Notes under the pieces: generated by a model
The model's input: only the letters and a program-made list of their open reading frames with translations
Database searches by the model: none
Told to the model about the DNA's origin: nothing
Program-made: the position numbers and the translations under genes
Assembly (NCBI GenBank): GCA_017958935.1
Contig: JAGDBR010000035.1
Span: forward strand, 1-10,116
Source of the DNA: Lachnospiraceae bacterium
Lineage (GTDB): Bacteria > Bacillota_A > Clostridia > Lachnospirales > Lachnospiraceae
Reading direction: 5' to 3'
Length of the DNA stretch: 10,116 bases
Part shown: positions 1 to 10,116 of the stretch, one piece after another
How positions within the stretch are numbered: the first letter of the stretch is position 1
How the letters are laid out: every line of letters starts with the position of its first letter

Positions 1-23
1 AAAACGGTCCGGGAACAGAACTG

Positions 24-56
24 AAAAGACCGCTGCGTGAATGCAGCGGTCTTTTT
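24..56. terminator. Bidirectional intrinsic terminator between convergent genes
   Basis: A perfect 13-bp stem is formed by 24-36 (AAAAGACCGCTGC) and 43-55 (GCAGCGGTCTTTT), with a 6-nt loop. The plus strand ends in five T's and the minus strand in four. On the minus strand it is the first classical terminator after the pcrA stop at 115. On the plus strand it would end a gene lying left of the window. Confidence 0.85.
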
Positions 57-60
57 CCGT

Positions 61-107
61 GTGCGCTTCGCCGCCGCATCGGGCGGTTCGGCGCACTTTT
101 TCTTTTT
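61..107 (+). terminator. Second tandem terminator, plus orientation
   Basis: Positions 61-96 fold into a long imperfect hairpin. GTGCGC (61-66) pairs with GCGCAC (91-96), and after a two-base internal mismatch 70-75 pairs with 82-87. It is followed directly by T5-C-T5 (97-107). The orientation of the T tract means it acts on plus-strand transcripts entering from the left. Together with the hairpin at 24-56 it makes a double stop facing the pcrA 3' end. Confidence 0.65.
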
Positions 108-114
108 GCGCGGT

Positions 115-2505
115 TTACCCGTCGATTTTCTTCAGCTTCGCGAAGCTTGCGAACATCCGTTTTTCGCCGTATTCATCGAAATTCACGGCGACCTCGTAAT
201 CCTTCTTCCCGTCGACGATCTCCAGGACCGTGCCGCAGCCGAACTTGACGTGCTGCACGCGGTCCCCGACGCCGTAGTCCAGGCCGACGGCCTTTTTTAC
301 TTCAAACGTCCGTCCGAAGGTCGCGGGCTTCGGGGGTGTGAACGGCTTCTTCGGGGCGCCGCCCGACGTGCCGGATCCGATGCCAAAAGCACCGCCATAG
401 GAGCCGCTGCCAAAGCCGTAGCCGCCTGATCCGCCGTAGGATCCTCCCCCGGCGCCTTGCTTGAAGCTGAAGCCCTTGTAGCCGCGGTCTTCGTCCGCGC
501 CGTACGCGCTCCTGCCGCTCCGGCGCTCCGTCATCCGGCCGTCGGTGTCCAGCATGTCTTCCGGGATCTCCTGCACGAAGCGGGAGGGCTTATTGTTGCG
601 CATCTCACCGTTCACGGTCCGCGCGCGCGCGCCGGAAATGAACAGCTCCTTCTGCGCCCGCGTCATGCCGACGTAGCACAGCCGCCGCTCTTCTTCGATG
701 TCCATGTAGTCGCCCGAACTGATCGACTGGTAGGACGGGAACAGGCCGTCTTCACAGCCTGCGAGGAAGACCGTCGGGAACTCGAGTCCCTTCGAGGAAT
801 GGAGCGTCATCAGCAGCAACTTGTCGTCGTTCTCGGACACGGCGTCCACGTCCGCGACCAGCGCGATCTCCTCCAGGAAATCGGACAGGGTCGGCTCATG
901 GTCGCCGTCGAAGTTTTCCTGGAAATCCGTCGCCTTCGAGATCAGCTCTTCGATGTTCTCCTTCTTCTGTTCCTTTTTCTCGTCCTCAAAGTCTTCCAGC
1001 GTCGAATAATAGTCCGTCTTGTCAATGACCGCGCGGATCAGTTCGTCGAACGCGACCGCTTCCCCGCTCGGCCGTCCGTCGGGCAGCAGCCCGGCCTGCT
1101 CGCGCAGTTCGCCGATCAGGTGGGCGAAAGCCGAAAGCTTCGTCCGCGCACGCTCGACGCCCGGGATCTCGTCCGTGTACCGCAAAGCTTCCAGCAGGGA
1201 GAGCCCGTGCTGCGCCGCGTACGCACCGACCTTGTCGAGCGTCGTGTCGCCGATGCCCCGCCGCGGGACGTTGATGATCCTGCGCGTCGAAATGTCGTCG
1301 CGGCCGCCGGCCACGGTCTTCAAATACGCGATCAGGTCCTTGATCTCCTGGCGCTGGTAGAAGTTCACGCCGCCGACGATCTGGTACGGGACGTTCTGCA
1401 GGAGGCACCGTTCTTCAAACAGGCGGGACTGCGCGTTCGTCCGGAACAGGACCGCGTAATCCTTGTACTGCGCGCCGCTCCGGACGCCCCGCACGACGGT
1501 GCGGACGACCTCCTCAGCCTCCTGGTAGGCGTTGTCATAGAACTTGAAATGGACGGGGATGCCCTCGCCGAGGTCGGACCACAAATGCTTCTCCTTCCGG
1601 CCGCGGTTGTGCCGGATCACGGCGTTCGCGGCGTCCAGGATGTGCGTCGTGGAGCGGTAATTCTGCTCCAGCTTCACGACCTTCGTGCCCGGGAAATGCG
1701 ACTCGAACTCCAGGATGTTCCGGATGTCCGCGCCGCGGAAGCGGTAGATCGACTGGTCGTCGTCGCCGACGACGCAGAGGTTCCGGTGCTTCTTCGAAAG
1801 CAGCCACACGAACTGGAATTGCGCTTCGTTCGTATCCTGATACTCGTCCACGAGGATGTAGCGGAAGCGGTCCTGCCAGTATGCAAGGACCTGCTCGTTC
1901 TCTTCGAACAGCTGCACGGTCTTCAGGAGCAGGTCGTCGAAATCGAGCGCGTTGTTCTTCTTCAGCATCTTTTCGTACGCGTCGAAGATCTCTGCTTCCT
2001 TCTGCGCACGGTAATCGGACCCGGCCTCCTCCAGCTTGTCCTGCGGCGTCAGCATCTCGGTCTTCGCGTCCGAGATGTAATTCACCATCGCGCGCTCGCG
2101 GTACATCTTCGGGTCCAGGTCGAGCTCCTTCAGCACGCGCCGCACGGCCGCCCGCTGGTCATCCGCGTCGTAGATCGTGAAGTCGGTGTCGTAGCCGAGC
2201 CGGTCAATGAACCGGCGCAGGATCCTGACGCAGGTCGAGTGGAAGGTCGCGACCCACACGGAGTCGCCGAAGTCCACGAGCTTCTGCACGCGCTCCTTCA
2301 TCTCGTCCGCGGCTTTGTTCGTGAACGTGATCGCGAGGATGTTGTAAGGCGGGACGTTCTTCTCTTCAATGAGATAGGCGATCCTGTGCGTCAAAACGCG
2401 CGTCTTGCCCGCGCCCGCGCCCGCCAAAATAAGAAGCGGTCCCTCGGTGTGAAAGACCGCCTCTTTTTGAGGTTCATTCAGCAATGCGTACTTTTCGTCG
2501 TGCAT
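115..2505 (-). CDS. pcrA: ATP-dependent DNA helicase PcrA/UvrD
   Basis: This is a superfamily 1A 3'-5' DNA helicase of 796 residues, acting in nucleotide excision repair, replication restart and conflict resolution with RNA polymerase. All signature motifs are visible: the Q motif near 9-17; Walker A AGAGAGKT at 28-35 (K34); motif Ia TFTNKAADEM near 60-69; Walker B VDEYQDTN at 219-226; motif III GDDDQSIYRFRGAD at 247-260; motif IV QNYRS at 281-285; motif V TLHSSKGLEF at 567-576; and motif VI YVGMTRAQ at 611-618. A Gly/Ser/Tyr-rich linker (about 683-716) leads to a C-terminal Tudor-like domain (about 740-796, GDRVQHVKFGCGTVLEI), the RNA-polymerase contact module of Gram-positive PcrA. Length is slightly above the usual 720-760 because of the linker. 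The ATG at 2505 fits family N-termini, but it has only a weak AGG about 12 nt upstream. It lies 62 nt behind the SPFH gene and is probably co-transcribed with it. Confidence 0.96.
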   Translation of the reverse strand: MHDEKYALLNEPQKEAVFHTEGPLLILAGAGAGKTRVLTHRIAYLIEEKNVPPYNILAITFTNKAADEMKERVQKLVDFGDSVWVATFHSTCVRILRRFIDRLGYDTDFTIYDADDQRAAVRRVLKELDLDPKMYRERAMVNYISDAKTEMLTPQDKLEEAGSDYRAQKEAEIFDAYEKMLKKNNALDFDDLLLKTVQLFEENEQVLAYWQDRFRYILVDEYQDTNEAQFQFVWLLSKKHRNLCVVGDDDQSIYRFRGADIRNILEFESHFPGTKVVKLEQNYRSTTHILDAANAVIRHNRGRKEKHLWSDLGEGIPVHFKFYDNAYQEAEEVVRTVVRGVRSGAQYKDYAVLFRTNAQSRLFEERCLLQNVPYQIVGGVNFYQRQEIKDLIAYLKTVAGGRDDISTRRIINVPRRGIGDTTLDKVGAYAAQHGLSLLEALRYTDEIPGVERARTKLSAFAHLIGELREQAGLLPDGRPSGEAVAFDELIRAVIDKTDYYSTLEDFEDEKKEQKKENIEELISKATDFQENFDGDHEPTLSDFLEEIALVADVDAVSENDDKLLLMTLHSSKGLEFPTVFLAGCEDGLFPSYQSISSGDYMDIEEERRLCYVGMTRAQKELFISGARARTVNGEMRNNKPSRFVQEIPEDMLDTDGRMTERRSGRSAYGADEDRGYKGFSFKQGAGGGSYGGSGGYGFGSGSYGGAFGIGSGTSGGAPKKPFTPPKPATFGRTFEVKKAVGLDYGVGDRVQHVKFGCGTVLEIVDGKKDYEVAVNFDEYGEKRMFASFAKLKKIDG
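358..459 (-). repeat. Low-complexity Gly/Ser/Tyr linker in PcrA
   Basis: Residues about 683-716 of PcrA are almost only G, S, Y, A and F, with repeated GGSYGG / GSGGYG / GSGSYGG units. Such disordered linkers commonly separate the helicase core from the Tudor-like tail in Bacillota, but this one is long and tyrosine-spaced. The reading frame is intact across it. Confidence 0.7.
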
Positions 2506-2525
2506 ACTGTGTAAAAACCTAAAGG

Positions 2526-2566
2526 GTCATCTAAGATCTTCCCGCAAGCGGGTGCCTCCTGATGAC
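2526..2566 (-). promoter_or_regulatory. Structured pcrA leader with orphan Shine-Dalgarno and mini-ORFs
   Basis: Between the SPFH stop and the pcrA ATG, the minus strand has GTCATC (2566-2561) able to pair with GATGAC (2531-2526), enclosing a CCCG-CTTG-CGGG hairpin (2552-2541 region). A perfect AGGAGG (2560-2555) sits far from the pcrA ATG (49 nt) but only 7 nt before a TTG at 2547. That TTG opens a six-codon frame ending in TGA, and the TGA overlaps ATG ACC CTT TAG (2530-2519). The function is inferred: a coupling or attenuation leader is possible, as is chance. Confidence 0.3.
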
Positions 2567-2567
2567 G

Positions 2568-3608
2568 TTATCCGATCTGCTGGCCGCAGAACGGGCAGAA
2601 CTTCGCGCCCGGGATCACGAGCTTCTGGCCGCAGAACGGGCAGAATCTTGCGATCGGCTGGCCGTCTTCGGCCGTCTCGACCTTCACGTCGGGCGTGACA
2701 GGCGCCGGTGCCGGTGCCGGAGCGGGAGCCGGAGCCGGGGCTGCGCCGCCGTTCAGCTGGCCCGCAAGCTGCTGGCCCATCGCAAGGCCGGCTGCCATCT
2801 GCGCCATCGTGGTCGCGGTGCTGTCGCCGCCGTTCTCATTGTCCAGGCTGTTCGCGAACTGGACCTGCGTGTAATGCTGGGTGTCGCCGACCATCGCTGC
2901 GCCTGCGGCCTTCTCCTGCATCTCGCGGACGGATTCCGGATAGGAAACGCTCTGGATCGTATAATTCGTGCAAGCCATGCCGAACTGGGAGAACTCTTCG
3001 TTCAGCGCGGCGGTGATGTCCTTCGAGATGTCGTACGCGTTTGCCTGGATATTGAACATATCCTTGCCGTCCTTCAGGATGTACTTCATCAGGAGCTGGT
3101 CGTTGATGGAGCCGATGCGGTGCTTGATGTCGTCGATCGTGAAGCGCTTCTGCGCGCCCGCGACCTTCTCCAGCAGGACCGTGTAGTCGCCGACCTTCGT
3201 CGTGAAGGTGCCGAACGCACGGATCGGCATGCCGCCCGGGAGACCCGCGACCGGCAGGTTCAGCGCATTCTGCGTGCCCCAGTTCACCACAAACTCTCTC
3301 GTGTTGACGAACAGGACTTCCGCGCGCAGGCCCGAATCAAAACCGAACTTCCAGCCCTTCAGCGTGCTCAGGAAAGGAATGATCTGCGACTGGATGTCGT
3401 ATTCGCCTTCCTCTGTGAAGATGCCTTCGATGCGACCCTGGTACAGGAAGATCGCGTCCTGAGCCGGACGGATGATGAGCTTGCTGCCTCTCTTGATCTC
3501 ATCATTGTTCCATTTATAGAAAATGGAATTGTCGTCCATGTCAGCCCATTCCACGACGTTCAGCAGCTGGCCGGAAACCACGTCTTTAATGCTGTCAAAT
3601 AAACCCAT
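2568..3608 (-). CDS. SPFH-domain protein with C-terminal zinc ribbon (YdjI-like)
   Basis: A 346-residue protein of the 'virion core protein'/YdjI-type SPFH (band-7) family. Residues about 1-240 are the SPFH region: an N-terminal MGLFDSIKDVVS helix, then a beta-rich core and an alpha-helical stretch. Residues about 255-288 are a Met/Ala/Gln-rich helix, and 289-303 form an Ala-Pro repeat linker. The tail holds two CPFCG knuckles (C323/C326 and C338/C341), which make one four-cysteine zinc ribbon. In Bacillus subtilis, YdjI works with membrane zinc-ribbon proteins and the PspA homologue in membrane-stress response. I infer a similar membrane-scaffold role, although no PspA gene is in view. There is no signal peptide. 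The start at 3608 is secure: AAGGAGG lies 5 nt upstream, behind a clear promoter. The family is confident; the precise function is not. Confidence 0.88.
   Translation of the reverse strand: MGLFDSIKDVVSGQLLNVVEWADMDDNSIFYKWNNDEIKRGSKLIIRPAQDAIFLYQGRIEGIFTEEGEYDIQSQIIPFLSTLKGWKFGFDSGLRAEVLFVNTREFVVNWGTQNALNLPVAGLPGGMPIRAFGTFTTKVGDYTVLLEKVAGAQKRFTIDDIKHRIGSINDQLLMKYILKDGKDMFNIQANAYDISKDITAALNEEFSQFGMACTNYTIQSVSYPESVREMQEKAAGAAMVGDTQHYTQVQFANSLDNENGGDSTATTMAQMAAGLAMGQQLAGQLNGGAAPAPAPAPAPAPAPVTPDVKVETAEDGQPIARFCPFCGQKLVIPGAKFCPFCGQQIG
2700..2745 (-). repeat. Ala-Pro repeat encoded by GC-rich 6-bp units
   Basis: Degenerate GCCGGN/GAGCGG-type units encode the alternating Ala-Pro stretch (residues 289-303 of the SPFH protein). 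This is an extended, rigid spacer between the SPFH body and the zinc ribbon. Copy number may vary between strains by slippage. Confidence 0.6.
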
Positions 3609-3613
3609 AATAA

Positions 3614-3620
3614 CCTCCTT
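3614..3620 (-). promoter_or_regulatory. Shine-Dalgarno of the SPFH gene
   Basis: The minus strand reads AAGGAGG, 5 nt before the ATG at 3608. It is a near-perfect anti-16S match and fixes the start codon. Confidence 0.85.
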
Positions 3621-3659
3621 GGTAAGTTATTGTCATCGCAATAGGATTCCCTATGAATG

Positions 3660-3688
3660 ATTATAAACAACTCTTCCGGACTTGTCGA
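3660..3688 (-). promoter_or_regulatory. Sigma-A promoter of the SPFH-pcrA unit
   Basis: On the minus strand, TCGACA (3688-3683) lies 17 nt before a consensus TATAAT (3665-3660). The expected transcription start is near 3653, giving a leader of about 45 nt that contains the AAGGAGG. No terminator is seen between the SGNH stop (3762) and this promoter, so read-through from upstream is also possible. Confidence 0.75.
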
Positions 3689-3761
3689 TACTTTTTTTCC
3701 GGATATCGGCGCCCGGCCTGCCGCCTGAAAGCGGTGTCCACGGGCTTTCCGCGCGTTCCGC

Positions 3762-4772
3762 TTACGGGATCTCGTACCTCAGGCCCGCGTGGTCTTCCCA
3801 GAGGTGCATCTGGGTCGCCATCGTCTGCGCCCAGAGGAAATAGAAGTCCTTGTTGTAGTGCGCGTGATCGTGCGAATTGATGTATTTGAAATCCGCGTAC
3901 GGCGTCGCCGACACGTAGATCGCGCCGGTCTCGTCGCAGACCTGCCTGATGCGGGCGTTGAAGTCCGGGATCATGAAGAAGCGGTAGAAATACGGACGCG
4001 CTTCCTCCGGACACGGCAGGATCTCCATCAGGTAGATGACGCTGTTCGGGTTGATCGCGTGGTACTGCTGCACCATCTTCAGGTAGTCCTGGTAGAAGCG
4101 CTCGTTGCTGCCGTTATAGTAGCCGATGTCGTTCAGGCCCATGATGAAGAGGGTCTTCGGGGCGTACAGGTACGCCTGCTCGAGCGCGAACGGCGTGATC
4201 TGCTCGACCGAATTGCCGCTGCGGTACTTGACTTCCTTCTCGGACATGACACCGCAGTCCACGGCATTCTTCGCGCGGGAGTTGCCGATGACGATGCAGT
4301 GCGAGAAGAGCGCGCGCAGGTACGGGATGTCCGTGTCGTCGCAGTTGTAGACGACTTCCCGCGGGATAAGGTGCGAGCCTGCGAGCGGCGCCGTCAGGGC
4401 CGCCCATTCCGCTTCCTTCGAAGACTCCGCGACGGACGACTCGTAGATCGAGGCGGCGATGCTGTTCTCGATCTCGATGCTCTCCTGGATGCTCGACTGC
4501 CGGATCGATTCCTCGATCGACACGGATTCTGCAATGGACTCCTTGCGGCTCGCCTCGATCGAGCGCATCGCGCGCACGACCTCGCCGACGTCCGCCTCCT
4601 CGAGCGACTTCAGCGCTTCGACGGCGGTCTCGTCGACCGGGGCGACCGACGTGTCGGACGCGATCGCCGGATTCGACAGGTACGCCGCTCCGACAAGGAG
4701 GGCGAACGCGCAGCCGATCACCGCGAAATACCGGCCTTTCATTCTGCTTTTCGGTGCTTTCTTTTCGCTCAT
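3762..4772 (-). CDS. Membrane-anchored SGNH/GDSL-type hydrolase with Ser/Glu/Ile repeats
   Basis: A 336-residue protein. The N-terminus is basic, followed by one hydrophobic segment (about 14-32), which predicts a signal anchor with an extracellular body. Residues about 64-120 form a low-complexity, probably helical or coiled-coil stalk rich in ESI/SIEES units. The C-terminal half (about 138-336) looks like an SGNH hydrolase: block I reads IGNSRA (S165 as nucleophile, GNS in place of GDS), the block III-like motif is MGLNDIG (N214, D215), and the C-terminal D-x-x-H is D302/H305 in SHDHAHYN. Such proteins deacylate or esterify cell-envelope glycans or lipids; the substrate here is unknown. Its ATG directly follows the MATE stop (TGA-ATG), and its AAAGGAA Shine-Dalgarno lies inside the MATE 3' end, so the two are translationally coupled. 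The hydrolase call is moderately strong and the substrate is open. Confidence 0.78.
   Translation of the reverse strand: MSEKKAPKSRMKGRYFAVIGCAFALLVGAAYLSNPAIASDTSVAPVDETAVEALKSLEEADVGEVVRAMRSIEASRKESIAESVSIEESIRQSSIQESIEIENSIAASIYESSVAESSKEAEWAALTAPLAGSHLIPREVVYNCDDTDIPYLRALFSHCIVIGNSRAKNAVDCGVMSEKEVKYRSGNSVEQITPFALEQAYLYAPKTLFIMGLNDIGYYNGSNERFYQDYLKMVQQYHAINPNSVIYLMEILPCPEEARPYFYRFFMIPDFNARIRQVCDETGAIYVSATPYADFKYINSHDHAHYNKDFYFLWAQTMATQMHLWEDHAGLRYEIP
4413..4583 (-). repeat. Degenerate ESI/SIEES repeat stalk
   Basis: Residues about 64-120 of the SGNH protein repeat Ser-Ile-Glu and Glu-Ser-Ile/Val units with roughly 4-6 residue spacing. This fits an extended acidic helix or coiled coil lifting the catalytic domain off the membrane. 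It is encoded by degenerate GA/TC-rich repeats (GATCGA and ATCGAT types recur in the DNA). Confidence 0.6.
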
Positions 4773-6200
4773 TCAAGCTTCCTTTACGATATTCTGGATC
4801 CAGATGTTCTTCCGGATCATCAGGACGCCGATGCCCACCTTGATGAAGTCGGCAAGCGCGACGCATACGTAGATCCATACGGCCGGCACCGCCGTGAAGC
4901 GGCTCAGCACGAAGGCGATCGGGATGCTGACGGCCCAGATCATCAGACAGTCGTAGACAAAGGTCAGCATCGTCTTTCCGCCGCAGCGCAGCGTGAAGTA
5001 ACAGGCGTTGTTAAAAGCGTTCTGCGGCGCGAAGCACGCGTACGCGAGCAGGAACGACGTCGCGATCGCGCGGACCTCTTCCGTCGTGTTGTAGACCTTC
5101 GGGAAGACGCCCGAGACCGCGACGAGCAGGGCGGACGTGACGAGGCTCATCACGACGTTCGTGAAGAGCATCTTGTTGTCCGTGTCCTTCGCGTCCTGCA
5201 GTCTGCCGGCGCCCAGAAGCTGACCGACGATGATGCCGACCGAGCTGCCGAACGACAGGAAGACGACGTTCAGGCAGTTGTTCACGGTGTTCGCGATGTT
5301 CAGCGCCGCGACGACCGCGAGGCCGCGCATCGAGTAGCACTGCGCGAGGAAAGAGATGCCCGTCGACCACAGCGCTTCGTTCGCGAGGATCGGGAACCCC
5401 TTCGTGATGTAATCCTTCAGATAAGTCCTGCGTACCTTCACGGTCCGGTACAGGCCGGCGACCCAGGTGTGCTTTTCTTTGTGCGTGTGCGCGTAGATCA
5501 CGACGATCAGGACTTCGACGACACGGGAAATGAGCGTCGCGGCGGCCGCGCCGACGACGCCGAGCGCCGGCAGGCCGAAATGTCCGTAGATCAGGACCCA
5601 GTTCAGGAACAGGTTCGTCGTGACGGCGATGAGACTCGCCTTCATCGGCAGCAGCGTCTCGCCGCATTCGCGCAGCGTCGACGCGTAGACCTGCAGCAGC
5701 ATGAACGGCAGGAACGACAGGACGATGAGCCGCATGTACGCCTGACCGAAGCCGAGCGTCGCGAGCGCGTTCTCGCTGACGCCCTCTTCGTTCAGGTAGA
5801 GGCCGATCAGCGGCGCCGAAAACAGCAGAAGCACTGCGGTGGCAAGCGCCGTCAGCATGACGCCCGTCCACAGCTTCATCCGGAAGGAGTCCCGGACGCC
5901 CTCGTCGTCGCGCTTTCCGAAGAACTGCGCGGTGAAGATGCCCACGCCGGACAGCCCGCCGAACACGCACAGATTGTAGATGAATATCAGCTGGTTCGCG
6001 ATCGAGACGCCCGTCATCTGCTCCGTGCCGACGGCGCCGACCATCACGTTGTCCAGAAGACCGACGAAATTCGAGATGCCGTTCTGCACGATGATCGGGA
6101 CCGCGATCCCGAAGACCAGCCGGTAGAAGTTTTTATCGCCGATGAACCGCTCGCGGAAGGGTTTTCCGCGGGAGGCGTCGGTAAAGGTCATGTTCGCCAT
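4773..6200 (-). CDS. MATE family efflux transporter
   Basis: A 475-residue polytopic membrane protein of the multidrug and toxic compound extrusion family (NorM/DinF fold), which exports cationic drugs or metabolites using Na+ or H+ gradients. About 12 hydrophobic helices are visible in two MatE halves (about 27-235 and 265-460) joined by a basic loop (HTHKEKHTW, KVRRTYLKD). Typical features are VPIIVQNGISNFVGLLDNVMVG in TM1-TM2 (D50 in TM1), the LRECGETLLPM loop near 176-186 and FGSSVGIIVGQLLGAG near 317-332. Length is normal (440-480). The start is ATG 6200; a second ATG at 6191 is possible. Neither has a Shine-Dalgarno, and a strong promoter lies only 9 nt upstream, so the mRNA is probably leaderless. 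The stop abuts the SGNH start, indicating one operon. The substrate cannot be told from sequence. Confidence 0.93.
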   Translation of the reverse strand: MANMTFTDASRGKPFRERFIGDKNFYRLVFGIAVPIIVQNGISNFVGLLDNVMVGAVGTEQMTGVSIANQLIFIYNLCVFGGLSGVGIFTAQFFGKRDDEGVRDSFRMKLWTGVMLTALATAVLLLFSAPLIGLYLNEEGVSENALATLGFGQAYMRLIVLSFLPFMLLQVYASTLRECGETLLPMKASLIAVTTNLFLNWVLIYGHFGLPALGVVGAAAATLISRVVEVLIVVIYAHTHKEKHTWVAGLYRTVKVRRTYLKDYITKGFPILANEALWSTGISFLAQCYSMRGLAVVAALNIANTVNNCLNVVFLSFGSSVGIIVGQLLGAGRLQDAKDTDNKMLFTNVVMSLVTSALLVAVSGVFPKVYNTTEEVRAIATSFLLAYACFAPQNAFNNACYFTLRCGGKTMLTFVYDCLMIWAVSIPIAFVLSRFTAVPAVWIYVCVALADFIKVGIGVLMIRKNIWIQNIVKEA

Positions 6201-6209
6201 GATCAGAAA

Positions 6210-6238
6210 ATTATACTACAAACAGTGGAAGAAGACAA
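6210..6238 (-). promoter_or_regulatory. Sigma-A promoter of MATE-SGNH operon, leaderless arrangement
   Basis: The minus strand has TTGTCT (6238-6233), a 17-nt spacer and TATAAT (6215-6210). Only 9 nt separate TATAAT from the ATG at 6200, so transcription should start 3-5 nt before the ATG or on it. It lies just after the stop of the ATPase-like gene (6263), with no terminator between. Confidence 0.75.
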
Positions 6239-6262
6239 GTTTTCGCGCGCAAAGCCGGGGTT

Positions 6263-7510
6263 TTACGCTTCCCGTCCCGCGAAATACACGTTCAGGACGG
6301 CAAAGACCGACCATGCGACGGTGATCAGCAGCACGGGTCCGGCCGACAGAAGGCCCAGACCGGCGAGGACGGCCGCGGCGGCCGTCGCGGCCGCACCGGC
6401 GATCAGGCCGGTACGCGCGGTCTTCACCGTCTTGCGCGCCAGGGAAACAGCCTGTTCGTACCGGTCCGGGTCCGGATCCGGCATGAAGAAGCCGGCTTCC
6501 TTCGGCGCTTCCAGCGTTTCATGGCCTTCCGGGTAGACGCCGCAGCGCGCGAGCGCACCGGTCCCCGACTGAAATGCCAGCGGGACCGCAAAGGCGGATA
6601 CGAGCGGGCACGCAGCCGCAAGCAGCGCTGAGCCCCTGCGGATCCAGTCCGGGAAAGCGCTGCCCGTGATCAGCGGCGGCAGCACTGATACGAGCACGGC
6701 GCAAAGAAGCAGGACGGCGGCCAGGATCTTCGACAGCCGGACCGCGGTCCGCTCCGTCTTCCCGGGCTTTTCGCCCGCCTGTTTGAGCCGCGCGGAGAGT
6801 TTCTGCAGCATCGAATCTTCGGCTGTCTTCCCGGCGCGTATGATCAGCGGCCCCCGGCCGTTCACGAGGCCCGAGACGACTATGCTCCCCTTCCGGATGC
6901 GCACGGGGTCTGAGCCGCCGCTCAGCAGGGAAAGGTCCCCTTCCGAAGCGCCCTCCTCGACGACGCCGTCCAGCGGAACGGTCTCCGACGGACCGACCAG
7001 GATCAGGTCGCCCGGAACGGCTTCATCCGCCGGCAGCTTCACGAAGTCATTGCCGCGCCGCGCGAAGACTTCCTGCGGCAGCGCGTTCTCGTCCGGCAGC
7101 GCCCGCCGCCGGATGCCCGAAACGACCAGGCTCAGGACGAGGTCTCCCGCCGAGAACAGCAGCATGACGGCCGCCGCTTCCGTATGGTCGCCGAGCGCGA
7201 AGAGCGCAAGGCACGCCAGCGTCACGAACACCGGGCTTTCGAGCAGCCTGCCCTTCGTCAGGCAGTCCGCCGCGCGAAGCAGCACGTCGAAGCCCGCCAG
7301 CAGGAAGGCCGCGAACGAGAGCGACGCCGTCAGCGCGGTCCGCGCCCACAGCGCCTCGATCCTGTACAGGATCCCGCCGTAGCGCAGGAAAAGCAGCACC
7401 GCGAACAGCACGGCCCCGATGCAGATCCGGATCAGTTTGCTCTTCTGTTCTTTCGTCATCCGTCCATGCCGGCGCATCCTCTTCCGCTCATCGCGCCGGT
7501 CCTCCGTCAT
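6263..7510 (-). CDS. P1B-type metal ATPase-like protein lacking P and N domains (predicted pseudo-pump)
   Basis: A 415-residue membrane protein (from ATG 7510) homologous to heavy-metal P1B ATPases (ZntA/CadA/CopA type), but catalytically gutted. After a very basic 25-residue tail come four helices (about 26-42, 60-79, 93-106, 111-131). An A-domain follows (about 138-238) with the PGDLILVGPSETVPLDGVV signature at 166-184. TM5 (260-281) and TM6 (294-314) come next, TM6 with a CPx-like ACPL (C301, P302), and then the usual GTGALARCGV...HETLE segment. Where family members have the DKTGT phosphorylation motif and some 250 residues of P and N domain, the sequence reads GFFMPDPDPDRYEQ. It then joins directly to the family's last two helices (368-387, 391-410). 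The A-domain TGE is SGGS here (197-199). The frame is intact and codon use matches neighbours, so this is not an obvious wreck. An in-frame GTG at 7591 lies upstream of the promoter and is unlikely to be used. Confidence 0.8.
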   Translation of the reverse strand: MTEDRRDERKRMRRHGRMTKEQKSKLIRICIGAVLFAVLLFLRYGGILYRIEALWARTALTASLSFAAFLLAGFDVLLRAADCLTKGRLLESPVFVTLACLALFALGDHTEAAAVMLLFSAGDLVLSLVVSGIRRRALPDENALPQEVFARRGNDFVKLPADEAVPGDLILVGPSETVPLDGVVEEGASEGDLSLLSGGSDPVRIRKGSIVVSGLVNGRGPLIIRAGKTAEDSMLQKLSARLKQAGEKPGKTERTAVRLSKILAAVLLLCAVLVSVLPPLITGSAFPDWIRRGSALLAAACPLVSAFAVPLAFQSGTGALARCGVYPEGHETLEAPKEAGFFMPDPDPDRYEQAVSLARKTVKTARTGLIAGAAATAAAAVLAGLGLLSAGPVLLITVAWSVFAVLNVYFAGREA

Positions 7511-7519
7511 TTGTCTTTT

Positions 7520-7528
7520 ATTATACCA
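7520..7528 (-). promoter_or_regulatory. Extended -10 promoter of the ATPase-like gene
   Basis: The minus strand reads TGG-TATAAT (7528-7520), a TGn extended -10. The -35 region (TATCCG at 17 nt) is poor, as extended -10 promoters tolerate. TATAAT ends 9 nt before the ATG at 7510, so the transcript would carry about 3-5 nt of leader. No usable Shine-Dalgarno precedes that ATG. An in-frame ATG at 7477 has GGAAGAGG, but with too little spacing. Confidence 0.65.
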
Positions 7529-7562
7529 CTTTCCCGCGGTTTCGGATAGTCTGAAAGAAAGA

Positions 7563-7584
7563 CACAAAGATTTCACAAAGATTT
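7563..7584. repeat. Perfect 11-bp tandem repeat abutting CIRCE
   Basis: CACAAAGATTT occurs twice head-to-tail (7563-7573 and 7574-7584). It ends exactly where the CIRCE operator begins. The 11-bp period is about one helical turn, and the pair lies roughly 50-70 bp upstream of both divergent transcription starts. It may be a transcription-factor site; this is inferred from geometry only. Confidence 0.55.
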
Positions 7585-7611
7585 TTAGCACTCACTCTTG
7601 ACGAGTGCTAA
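7585..7611. promoter_or_regulatory. CIRCE operator (HrcA binding site)
   Basis: A perfect consensus inverted repeat: TTAGCACTC (7585-7593), a 9-nt spacer (7594-7602), then GAGTGCTAA (7603-7611). HrcA represses class I heat-shock genes through this element. It overlaps the hsp20 -35 hexamer, so bound HrcA would block RNA polymerase directly. hrcA itself is not in the window. Confidence 0.95.
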
Positions 7612-7626
7612 CAAAAGTGGTATAAC
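7598..7626 (+). promoter_or_regulatory. Sigma-A promoter of hsp20 inside CIRCE
   Basis: TTGACG (7598-7603), a 17-nt spacer, and TATAAC (7621-7626) preceded by TGG (extended -10). The -35 spans the CIRCE spacer and the first base of its right arm. The expected start is near 7633, leaving a leader of about 79 nt. Confidence 0.85.
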
Positions 7627-7696
7627 AGGGGTGTCCGATGAGGAGAGGCTATCCGATCCCCGTCCGGCAACCGAAAAAATAACCGCAACGACATAG

Positions 7697-7703
7697 AAGG
7701 AGG
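7697..7703 (+). promoter_or_regulatory. Shine-Dalgarno of hsp20
   Basis: AAGGAGG lies 8 nt before the ATG at 7712, in an A-rich unstructured context. I see no complementary pyrimidine stretch in the leader that would form an RNA thermometer on this site. Confidence 0.85.
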
Positions 7704-7711
7704 AAAAAACA

Positions 7712-8143
7712 ATGTTTATGCCCAGTATTTTCAGAGATAATTTTGTAGAGGACTTTTTCGATGATTTCAACCGCCCGCTGCGCGGCAAGGGTCCTGCGAT
7801 GAACAACATCATGAAGACCGACGTGGTCGAGAACGAGAACGGCTACGAGATCAGCATCGATCTCCCGGGCTATAAGAAAGAGGACGTGACCGCCGAACTG
7901 AAGGACGGCTACATGACGATCAGCGCCGAGTCGAAGAAGGAAAACGAAGAGAAGGATCAGAACGGCCGGTTCATCCGCCGCGAGCGCTTCGTCGGCAGCT
8001 GCTCCAGAACGTTCTACGTCGGCGATGCCGTGACCGAGGAAGACATCAAGGCGAAGTTCGAAGACGGCGTCCTGAAGGTCTCCGTTCCGAAGAAGGTCGT
8101 TCAGCCGGAGATCCCGGAGAAGAAGGTCATCGCGATCGACTGA
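7712..8143 (+). CDS. Small heat-shock protein, Hsp20/alpha-crystallin family
   Basis: A 143-residue cytosolic ATP-independent chaperone that binds unfolding proteins and hands them to DnaK/GroEL. The alpha-crystallin domain runs from about residue 34 (MKTDVVENENGYEISIDLPG) to 128. It ends in the diagnostic GVLKVSVPKK (119-128). The N-terminal arm is short and Phe/Asp-rich. The C-terminal tail carries the I-x-I oligomerisation motif as IAI (140-142). Length is typical for bacterial Hsp20 (140-155). The ATG at 7712 has AAGGAGG 8 nt upstream. The gene stands alone on the plus strand between a CIRCE-controlled promoter and a strong terminator, so it is a monocistronic HrcA-regulated unit. It is divergent from the ATPase-like gene. 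Confidence 0.95.
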   Translation: MFMPSIFRDNFVEDFFDDFNRPLRGKGPAMNNIMKTDVVENENGYEISIDLPGYKKEDVTAELKDGYMTISAESKKENEEKDQNGRFIRRERFVGSCSRTFYVGDAVTEEDIKAKFEDGVLKVSVPKKVVQPEIPEKKVIAID

Positions 8144-8183
8144 CCGCTTTCAGTTGACATTTGATTTCCGATCCCCCATACGG

Positions 8184-8213
8184 AAGGCCCCGGGAAACCC
8201 CCGGGGCCTTTTT
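8184..8213 (+). terminator. Intrinsic terminator of hsp20
   Basis: An 11-bp perfect stem is formed by AAGGCCCCGGG (8184-8194) and CCCGGGGCCTT (8200-8210), with a 5-nt loop; T's at 8209-8213 follow. It lies 41 nt after the hsp20 stop. On the minus strand only two T's follow the stem, so it would end the aldo/keto reductase transcript weakly at best. Confidence 0.92.
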
Positions 8214-8225
8214 CATGTCCTGTGC

Positions 8226-8253
8226 ACGGCCAAAAGAGCGCTTCTCCGGCCGT
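8226..8253. repeat. Inverted repeat between convergent hsp20 and AKR genes
   Basis: ACGGCC (8226-8231) pairs with GGCCGT (8248-8253), with an inner GAG/CTC stem. It follows the AKR-HMA stop (8271) on the minus strand but has no T tract, so it is a possible 3' stabilising hairpin rather than a classical terminator. Confidence 0.3.
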
Positions 8254-8270
8254 TCCTTGCGTCTGATTTT

Positions 8271-8489
8271 TCAGTTTTCTTCCGCTATGCCCTTCAGCAC
8301 GTAATCCGCGTCCGCGATCACCGCGGCCAGTTTCTCATGATCCAGCGGCGCAGCCGAGACGACGACGGTCGTATTTGTCCTGCAGTCCGACTCCACGCTC
8401 TCCACGTCAAACGCCCGCCTGATCGCCTCGTTCACGTGGCGCTCGCAGTTATGGCACATCATTCCTTCCACATTCAGTACGGTCTTCAC
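8271..8489 (-). CDS. Possible independently initiated HMA copper-chaperone-like protein (in-frame internal start)
   Basis: The last 72 codons of the AKR-HMA frame form a whole HMA domain (beta-alpha-beta-beta-alpha-beta length, GMMCHNC site). They begin with GTG at 8489, 7 nt after GGGAGGAG (8504-8497). The resulting product, beginning M-K-T-V-L-N-V-E-G-M-M-C, has the usual N-terminus and size of free-standing clostridial HMA proteins. Internal translation would give a soluble metal chaperone beside the fusion. This is inferred from the start signals; it is not certain that the ribosome uses them. Confidence 0.45.
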   Translation of the reverse strand: MKTVLNVEGMMCHNCERHVNEAIRRAFDVESVESDCRTNTTVVVSAAPLDHEKLAAVIADADYVLKGIAEEN

Positions 8490-9404
8490 GGTTTTTCTCC
8501 TCCCTGTTTCCTCTTCTAAAGACAGTCTCCTGTCGATTTCTTTTAACATTTCTTCCGGCAGTCCGCCTTTTTCCGCAGCCGCGGCGTTCGCCCGGATGTG
8601 CTGTGGATCGGCGGAACCCACGATCCGCACCGACACGGCCGGATTCGACAGCGCGTAGCGCAGCAGCAGCTCCGGCACGGTCTCGTTCTCCCCGCAGAGT
8701 TCCCCGAGCTTCGCGCGCTCGAGCCGCACCGCGTCTTCCGGGAAATACTTCTTCAGGATCCCGCGGGCAATGACCCCGTAACCCTGCTTCGAAAGCGCGT
8801 CGATCTCGCACCGGCTGACCTGCGTCAGCGGTCCCCACACCATCTGCACGGTGTCGAAGACGCCCCAGCCCATCATTTCCGCCGTATAGGCTTCCTGGTG
8901 CTTCGTCGGGTACATCTCCTGCCCGAGCGACCCGTTCTTGAAGCTGATGCCGATCGCGTCGACAATCCCCTGCGCCTTCAGCTCTTCCAGATAGCGCACC
9001 GCGTCGTCGTCCTTCCCGCCCGGCAGGTCCGGCGGTGTCACGCAGTGGATCTGCAGCAGCTCCAGGTGGTCGGTGCGCAGCCGCCGCAGGCTTTCTTCCA
9101 GGTTCTTCCGGAACTGTTCCCGCGTGAAGATGTGCGCCGGTCCCTCGCCCGACAGGTTGCAGGCGCATTTCGTCGCCAGCGCGTATTCCTGCCGTCTGCC
9201 GCTGATATAGCGCCCGATCAGCTCTTCGCTCATGCCGTAGTCCGGCGAGGTGTCGATATAGCGGAGGCCCGCGTCGAGCACAGTGTTCAGGATCTCTTCC
9301 GCGCGGTCGTGGTTCTTCGGGACGCGAAGCTCCATCGCGCCGTAGCCGAGCGGCGTGACCGGTATGCCGGTCCTGCCCAGTGTCGTCATTTCCATGCTGC
9401 TCAT
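8271..9404 (-). CDS. Aldo/keto reductase fused to a C-terminal HMA metal-binding domain
   Basis: A 377-residue protein. Residues about 5-300 are a complete NAD(P)H-dependent aldo/keto reductase TIM barrel. The catalytic tetrad D51, Y56, K79, H120 sits in YIDTSPDYG, ALATKC and ELLQIH. The cofactor-binding tail is RIVGSADPQHIRAN (260-273). Residues 306-377 are a heavy-metal-associated (HMA) domain with the GMMCHNC metal site (C317, C320), as in copper chaperones such as CopZ. AKRs normally end near 300-330, so this is a fusion. The junction (about 286-308) is encoded by locally AT-richer, purine-rich DNA that resembles an intergenic region, and it contains a strong Shine-Dalgarno. ATG 9404 has GGGAAAGG directly against it; ATG 9395, 8 nt after AAAGGA, is the better-spaced start. 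The gene is 46 nt behind the DUF1015 gene with no clear promoter, so co-transcription is likely. The AKR substrate is unknown. Confidence 0.88.
   Translation of the reverse strand: MSSMEMTTLGRTGIPVTPLGYGAMELRVPKNHDRAEEILNTVLDAGLRYIDTSPDYGMSEELIGRYISGRRQEYALATKCACNLSGEGPAHIFTREQFRKNLEESLRRLRTDHLELLQIHCVTPPDLPGGKDDDAVRYLEELKAQGIVDAIGISFKNGSLGQEMYPTKHQEAYTAEMMGWGVFDTVQMVWGPLTQVSRCEIDALSKQGYGVIARGILKKYFPEDAVRLERAKLGELCGENETVPELLLRYALSNPAVSVRIVGSADPQHIRANAAAAEKGGLPEEMLKEIDRRLSLEEETGRRKTVKTVLNVEGMMCHNCERHVNEAIRRAFDVESVESDCRTNTTVVVSAAPLDHEKLAAVIADADYVLKGIAEEN
8497..8504 (-). promoter_or_regulatory. Internal Shine-Dalgarno at the AKR/HMA junction
   Basis: The minus strand reads GGGAGGAG, 7 nt before GTG 8489. 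It encodes Gly-Arg-Arg of the fusion linker (rare AGG/AGA arginine codons for this GC-rich window), which suggests that it exists as a ribosome site rather than for its amino acids. Confidence 0.6.
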
Positions 9405-9450
9405 CCTTTCCCGGCGCCGCAGGCTTTTTACGCCTTCGCGCCGTATGCGT

Positions 9451-10116
9451 TTACCGCTCGATCTCGTGCAGGAGAAGGCCCGAGCGCAGCTTCGGCTCGA
9501 ACCAGGTGCTCTTCGGGGGCATCAGCAGTCCGTGGTCCGCGACCGCGAACAGTTCGTCCATCGAGGTCGGGTACATCGAGAAGGCCGCCGCGCAGTCTTC
9601 GCCGCAGCGCCTTTCAAGCTCCCGGAGGCCCCGGATGCCGCCGATGAAGTCGATCCGCGGGTCGGTCTTCGGGTCTTCGATGCCGAGGACGGGGCCGAGG
9701 ACGTTGTCCTGCAGGACCGACACGTCGAGCCCCCGGACCGGGTCGTCCGACAGCAGCGCCTGCTTCGCGTCAAGCCGGTACCAGCAGCCCTCCAGATACA
9801 GGCCGAATTCGCCCTTCTTCGAAGGCCGCACCGGCGCGTCGCCCTCTTCCTTCCGGATCTCGAACCCTTCCGCCAGTTTTTCCAGAAAAGCGTCCGCGCT
9901 CAGCCCGTTCAGGCTCTTCAGGACGCGGTTGTAGTCCATGATGTGAAGGTGTGACGCCGGAAACAGGACCGACAGGAAGAAATTGAACTCTTCCGTGCCG
10001 TCGCAGTCCGGGTGCGCCTCGCGCCGCTTCAGCGCGACCTTCACGGCGGAAGCCGCCCGGTGATGGCCGTCGGCGATGTAGGTGCACGGCACGGACGCGA
10101 ACGCCTCCGTCAGAAA
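9451..10116 (-). CDS. DUF1015 family protein, 3' part (5' end outside window)
   Basis: The open frame enters from the right edge and gives 221 residues to the TAA at 9451; a nominal GTG at 10092 is an internal valine, not the start. The YIADGHHRAASA motif at the beginning of the visible part is the hallmark of DUF1015 proteins, which older annotation called Spo0J/ParB-like because ADGHHR resembles the ParB/sulfiredoxin-fold nuclease motif. Family members are usually about 400-450 residues, so roughly half is missing. The C-terminal motifs MDYNRVLKSLNG, DNVLGPVLGIEDP, MYPTSMDELFAVAD and LLMPPKSTWFEPKLRSGLLLHE are also family-like. The biochemical function is unknown. In clostridia the gene often neighbours serine-biosynthesis genes (serC/serA), which would lie outside this window. 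It is followed 46 nt later by the AKR-HMA gene. Confidence 0.88.
   Translation of the reverse strand, partial: FLTEAFASVPCTYIADGHHRAASAVKVALKRREAHPDCDGTEEFNFFLSVLFPASHLHIMDYNRVLKSLNGLSADAFLEKLAEGFEIRKEEGDAPVRPSKKGEFGLYLEGCWYRLDAKQALLSDDPVRGLDVSVLQDNVLGPVLGIEDPKTDPRIDFIGGIRGLRELERRCGEDCAAAFSMYPTSMDELFAVADHGLLMPPKSTWFEPKLRSGLLLHEIER

Follow-up and report, generated by a model that had tools for sequence, protein, structure and literature searches.

P-type ATPases are defined by a phosphorylated aspartate, and the locus studied here raises the question of what becomes of such a protein when this residue and the domains around it are gone. The locus lies in a stretch of 10,116 nucleotides from a Lachnospiraceae bacterium (assembly GCA_017958935.1, contig JAGDBR010000035.1, positions 1 to 10,116 of the forward strand; hereafter the window), in which the minus-strand frame from 7510 to 6263 had been predicted from the letters alone to encode a metal P1B-ATPase homologue without P and N domains. 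We consider it rather likely that this pseudo-pump gene descends from a ZntA-type (P1B-2) Zn/Cd ATPase which lost its engine, most likely in place, and was kept as a non-catalytic membrane protein.

A P1B-2 ATPase frame without P and N domains

The frame proved as long and intact as predicted, with no internal stop over 415 codons; translation probably starts at the ATG at 7459 (398 amino acids), where the homologue P0003, described below, starts too. Pfam returned PF00122 (A-domain region) with an E-value of 2.5e-34, above the cut-off, which makes the protein a member of the P-type ATPase superfamily by descent. It gave no match to the hydrolase (P/N) domain PF00702, and the only other row was a sub-threshold DUF4191; a full-length relative (L065) gave both PF00122 and PF00702. 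The curated cut-off of NCBIfam TIGR01525 was not reached (135.3 vs 346.25 bits; best stretch residues 95-340). It is thus confirmed that the frame encodes the membrane part and the A domain of a zinc/cadmium P1B-2 ATPase and that the P/N region, with DKTGT, is gone. An AlphaFold2 model made with the family alignment (predicted local distance difference test score, pLDDT, 92.6; predicted template modelling score, pTM, 0.85) showed the eight helices MA, MB and M1-M6 and the A-domain fold, with matches in the PDB, in line with the original prediction.

Protein searches drew on 5.8 billion proteins, from which only 7,995 and 7,998 candidates sharing most words were scored. The 69 matches comprised the window protein itself (P0002), one short protein (P0003) and 67 others of 447-726 amino acids at no more than 37% identity. 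P0003 has 410 amino acids, is 66% identical to the window protein, lies on a separate contig of 12,212 bases and is likewise without P and N domains in Pfam; the excision, (S/T)GG, CPL and Thr397 are common to both. A homologue in the 400-450-residue range to which the original prediction had pointed therefore exists, with a matching excision, and the nearest homologue is itself short and not full-length. P0015, P0047, P0048 and P0050 were considered as possible intermediates and rejected, all retaining DKTGT.

Scans of genome contigs for more short members gave nothing in one case and two loci in the other, one of which (L001) is a full-length pump of 629 amino acids; a viral scan for short-form relatives gave no match. 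Among family genomes, 16 of 397 matched at E ≤ 1e-55, all with frames of 625-659 amino acids (one with an internal stop), and each of the 15 genomes in the genus of G900 (the closest genome reached, see below) had a match at E ≤ 1e-5, with best frames of 506-877 amino acids, except for one of 415 amino acids in G919, where stretches read N. Stricter scans matched none of 295 relatives at E ≤ 1e-64 and none of 343 family genomes at E ≤ 1e-62, an empty answer that is uninformative without a known positive. A region search with the end of P0003 returned P0003 alone and missed even the window protein, and is thus a weak negative. Diverged short forms may exist below these cut-offs.

Motif losses and the former metal site

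The motifs of the two short proteins (P0003 and the window protein, P0001) were compared with 18 full-length rows, obtained from 19 loci after exclusion of L051, for which an antisense frame had been taken. DKTGT, the glutamate of TGE and CPC were each present in 18 of 18 full-length rows. Both short proteins lack DKTGT, carry SGG (window) or TGG (P0003) for TGE, and have CPL for CPC, with the Cys and Pro kept and the second Cys lost. The P1B-2 set of CPC, M5 Lys and M6 Asp is replaced by L303, T376 (Glu in P0003) and T397. The SGG and the CPx-like ACPL, the latter in M4, were therefore read correctly from the start, and the two independent motif losses proposed are both real; they are accompanied by the further losses of CPC, the M5 Lys and the M6 Asp. 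Judged by these residues, pumping by either short protein is ruled out because the second CPC Cys, the M5 Lys and the M6 Asp are lost in both; a phosphorylation cycle in the window protein would be excluded since its Asp and TGE are missing, and normal zinc handling there is unlikely because the M6 Asp, the second Cys and the Lys are missing. Columns invariant in the full-length rows were retained by both short proteins in 33 of 90 cases N-terminally and in 4 of 22 cases C-terminally. In addition, 106 residues are common to the two short proteins but do not occur in any of the 18 rows, Cys30, Cys83 and Cys100 among them.

These shared cysteines suggest a rival explanation, namely that a remodelled passive metal or thiol site (Cys100 in M1, Cys301 in M4, Glu111, Asp123) serves as an ATP-independent metal channel or sensor. 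In the parts of PMC6305203 and PMC8880997 covered, the metal site of ZntA consists of C392, C394 and D714, with K693 as built-in counter-ion; M187 caps this site in the part of PMC6305203 covered. The equivalent of C392 is kept (Cys301), as is that of the exit residue E202 (Glu111), Asp123 stands at E214 of the funnel, and Cys100, when aligned without gaps, corresponds to ZntA position 191, a single helical turn away from M187. On the other side, two of the three ligands (C394 to Leu303, D714 to Thr397) and K693 (now Thr376) are gone, D348 of the funnel has become Val257, and none of the window proteins scanned was recognisable as a metal regulator. We regard such a site as unlikely; the ordinary ATP-independent metal channel suggested originally is disfavoured, as the two ligands and the counter-ion Lys are gone in both short proteins.

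The excision junction

Judged by length against the nine full-length genus proteins (623-679 amino acids), the in-frame loss amounted to about 225-280 residues. The junction of P0003 retains VLEKCGLVLMADDPERIEK, aligning with the family AADIVLMDDD at the end of the P domain; its window counterpart EAGFFMPDPDPDRYEQ represents this stretch in a further decayed form, and the junction around it is shorter than that of P0003 by 12 residues. The acidic/proline linker described earlier is present as PDPDPD, which is probably a relic of the last P-domain strand and not a designed linker, because it aligns with AADIVLMDDD where P0003 still reads CGLVLMADDP.

Selection on the remaining shell

Selection was assessed at the protein level, the window gene being compared with the P0003 protein and being evolved neutrally to the observed distance in 2,500 runs under five settings. 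The proteins differ at 130 of 398 aligned positions, and 52 of these 130 differences (0.40) are conservative; the neutral means were 0.21-0.24 with a maximum of 0.36, so that no run reached the observed value. The clustering of differences was matched in 2 of 2,500 runs (permutation p = 0.0018), and conservative changes, clustering and absence of stops occurred jointly in none. In nine full-length pairs the conservative fraction was 0.39-0.58, and in the three pairs at 62-66% identity it was 0.39-0.46. Identity between the short proteins varied by part: 85% in MA (residues 18-44), 88% in the former TGE loop, 48% in M2 and 52% in M5. By these comparisons, the protein appears to have been under selection after the loss of catalysis. 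The original view of a retained pseudo-pump, as opposed to misassembly or fresh decay, is well supported because the excision is shared by P0003 on another contig and the differences carry a selection signal.

Several observations weigh against retention and the role proposed below. The short-form family amounts to two members within reach of the searches made; the stem of the tree is so long (4.8 + 4.0 changes per column) that the short pair could not be placed, and the letter composition of P0001 is unlike that of the remaining rows. The confidence of the fold came from the family alignment, since with the two short proteins as sole rows the pLDDT was only 45. The codon log-odds of the gene (0.31) are the lowest of seven genes (neighbours 0.32-0.51) and sink to -0.01 around codons 271-320. 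A frame free of stops is, by itself, no rarity under a GC-rich null: 81 of the 2,500 neutral runs kept one, as did 0.8, 1.6 and 6.2% of a separate 3 x 1,000 runs. Finally, that the A domain mediates regulation is a guess prompted by conservation.

A slowly decaying pseudogene, in which the excision killed the pump, the rest drifts and a GC-rich genome has kept the frame open by chance, would fit the scarcity of members, the long stem, the low codon log-odds and the stop-free runs just mentioned, as well as the shorter window junction and the loss of all catalytic and most metal-binding motifs. It would not fit the conservative fraction or the clustering, and full-length pairs at equal distance behave like the short pair. 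The third-position GC content is also intact (0.84; neighbours 0.81-0.89), so that the codon use first called normal is near normal, at the low end of the neighbours in log-odds. We find such decay rather improbable.

That the P and N domains are provided in trans by another protein is very improbable: the cut does respect domain boundaries, and the fold of the membrane and A domains persists in the model, but TGE, CPC, the M5 Lys and the M6 Asp are gone as well, so that the rejoined pump would lack essential residues, and none of the eight window proteins scanned contains PF00702. A collapsed deletion or binning artefact, conceivable in what is probably a metagenome-type contig, was rejected as scarcely credible because both the excision and the dead A-domain loop recur in the 66% identical P0003, which is encoded on a different contig and has a junction of another length.

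Genomic setting and origin

By comparison of UvrD, the closest genome reached was G900 (67% identity; 63% by tblastn). Ten stretches from nine genomes of its genus were compared with eight window proteins. The order pump, MATE, GDSL on one strand was found in G920, G930, G926 and G925, followed by band7 and UvrD where the contig reaches, with pump-MATE spacings of about 170 (G920), 145 (G926) and 300 (G925) bases and 1.8 kb (G930); the spacing in the window is 62 bases. In G900 the order is kept, with about 10 kb of other genes separating pump from MATE; further genes also stand between MATE and the GDSL gene there (L062:2313-5397). The G919 stretch holds pump, band7 and UvrD, those of G921 and G923 the pump only, and that of G924 the pump and a heavy-metal-associated (HMA) match. 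All nine genus pump frames carry DKTGT and TGE. In L065 and L070 the pump is preceded by a regulator of the ArsR family and a small HMA protein (Pfam), an arrangement also discerned by eye in others; unlike these relatives, the window has no arsR-hma directly in front of its gene, and a perfect CIRCE element (controlling inverted repeat of chaperone expression) with hsp20 stands at that site.

Orthology to the syntenic full-length pumps rests on synteny and not on the tree, whose stem is too long to place the short pair. As the tree cannot position the long branch, xenologous replacement in place may also have occurred.

In the window, a SPFH/Band 7 protein (2568-3608, minus strand), with a C-terminal zinc ribbon below Pfam cut-offs, is encoded between uvrD and the GDSL-like gene; the band7-uvrD pair also occurs in L062, L063, L065 and L066. 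At 8271-9404 (minus strand), an aldo/keto reductase and a C-terminal HMA domain share one frame (PF00248 + PF00403); the HMA part is matched in L065 and L068 by short, separate segments close to the pump.

The promoter that had been claimed for the gene itself was recovered in part: a putative extended -10 was seen by eye, with a poor -35, and it was not among the entries of the consensus promoter scan. The inverted repeat in front of hsp20, which we take to be CIRCE (the HrcA site), was matched once in the window with 0 expected in 200 shuffles; the 70 loci fetched, of which many are short, contained no exact match. It may also influence the divergent pseudo-pump promoter about 60 bases away. 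An Rfam search of the window gave no match.

Table 1. Features of the pseudo-pump locus in window coordinates
Feature	Residues	Position	Strand	Remarks
Pseudo-P1B-ATPase gene		6263..7510	-	415 codons from ATG 7510; 398 from likelier ATG 7459
Helix MA	20-44	7379..7453	-	Model; holds shared new Cys30
Helix MB	54-85	7256..7351	-	Model; holds shared new Cys83
Helix M1	92-105	7196..7237	-	Model; shared new Cys100, Thr in 18 full-length rows
Helix M2	109-137	7100..7186	-	Model; Glu111 = ZntA E202, Asp123 = ZntA E214
A-domain strands	147-226	6833..7072	-	Pfam and model
SGG replacing dephosphorylation motif TGE	197-199	6914..6922	-	TGG in P0003
Helix M3	251-282	6665..6760	-	Model
Helix M4	286-322	6545..6655	-	Model; broken at ACPL
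CPx motif ACPL	300-303	6602..6613	-	Alignment; SCPC in full-length rows
Excision junction, EAPKEAGFFMPDPDPD	334-349	6464..6511	-	Last P-domain strand remnant (probable); DKTGT, N domain and most of P domain gone
Helix M5, membrane part	362-384	6359..6427	-	Family Lys is Thr376 (Glu in P0003)
Helix M6	390-414	6269..6343	-	Family metal-binding Asp is Thr397 in both short proteins
Putative pseudo-pump promoter, extended -10 TGGTATAAT		7520..7528	-	By eye; poor -35
MATE transporter, directly downstream		4773..6200	-	Syntenic anchor shared with relatives holding a full-length pump
Perfect inverted repeat taken to be CIRCE operator (HrcA site)		7585..7611	+	1 match in window
hsp20 promoter TTGACG-17-TATAAC		7598..7626	+	By eye; overlapped by CIRCE

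Discussion

Two diverged lineages share the engine-less state, and their later differences look selected. With ZntA and its P1B-2 relatives (4umv, 4umw; syntenic L041-L044), the window protein has in common the order MA, MB, M1-M6, the A-domain fold, the CP of CPx, the equivalent of E202 and the place of the gene before MATE-GDSL; unlike them, it is without DKTGT, the N domain and nearly all of the P domain, and has SGG for TGE, CPL for CPC and neither M5 Lys nor M6 Asp. CopA (P1B-1; ion-uptake structure 7r0g), at 21% identity, is a Cu+ pump that is complete, P and N domains included. No P-type ATPase without P and N domains was described in the titles and abstract starts of the open-access papers listed, or in the parts of PMC10654040 and PMC8880997 covered.

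Pseudoenzymes and inactive transporters in general keep the fold, lose the catalytic motifs and remain selected in what is left. The shell discussed here probably acts as a membrane regulator or sensor, as its conservation suggests: the best-kept parts are the N-terminal helix region and the A-domain loop, and therefore a membrane regulator or sensor signalling through the A domain is favoured. After the in-frame excision of DKTGT, the N domain and most of the P domain from a ZntA-type pump, most likely in place, the eight-helix bundle and the A domain would have been turned into a membrane-anchored regulator or sensor. The bundle, in which Cys30, Cys83, Cys100, Cys301, Glu111 and Asp123 are present in both short proteins, would hold a ligand or a membrane signal, and this would pass by way of the A domain, in which the former TGE loop ranks among the best-conserved stretches, to a partner. 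That partner might be another, intact P-type pump, on whose P domain an A domain can dock. Tentatively, an ATP-independent protein may have arisen from the P-type shell, with a thiol site and a re-used A domain sensing metal, redox or membrane state and controlling a pump or an envelope function.

If the favoured reading of a selected, non-catalytic membrane protein is true, a lineage has discarded the catalytic half of a P-type ATPase while the rest stayed under selection, and membrane and A domains can function alone. Names such as 'heavy-metal ATPase' that are given from the A domain alone may then label non-pumps, and the short proteins would offer a natural minimal system for the role of the A domain without a P domain.
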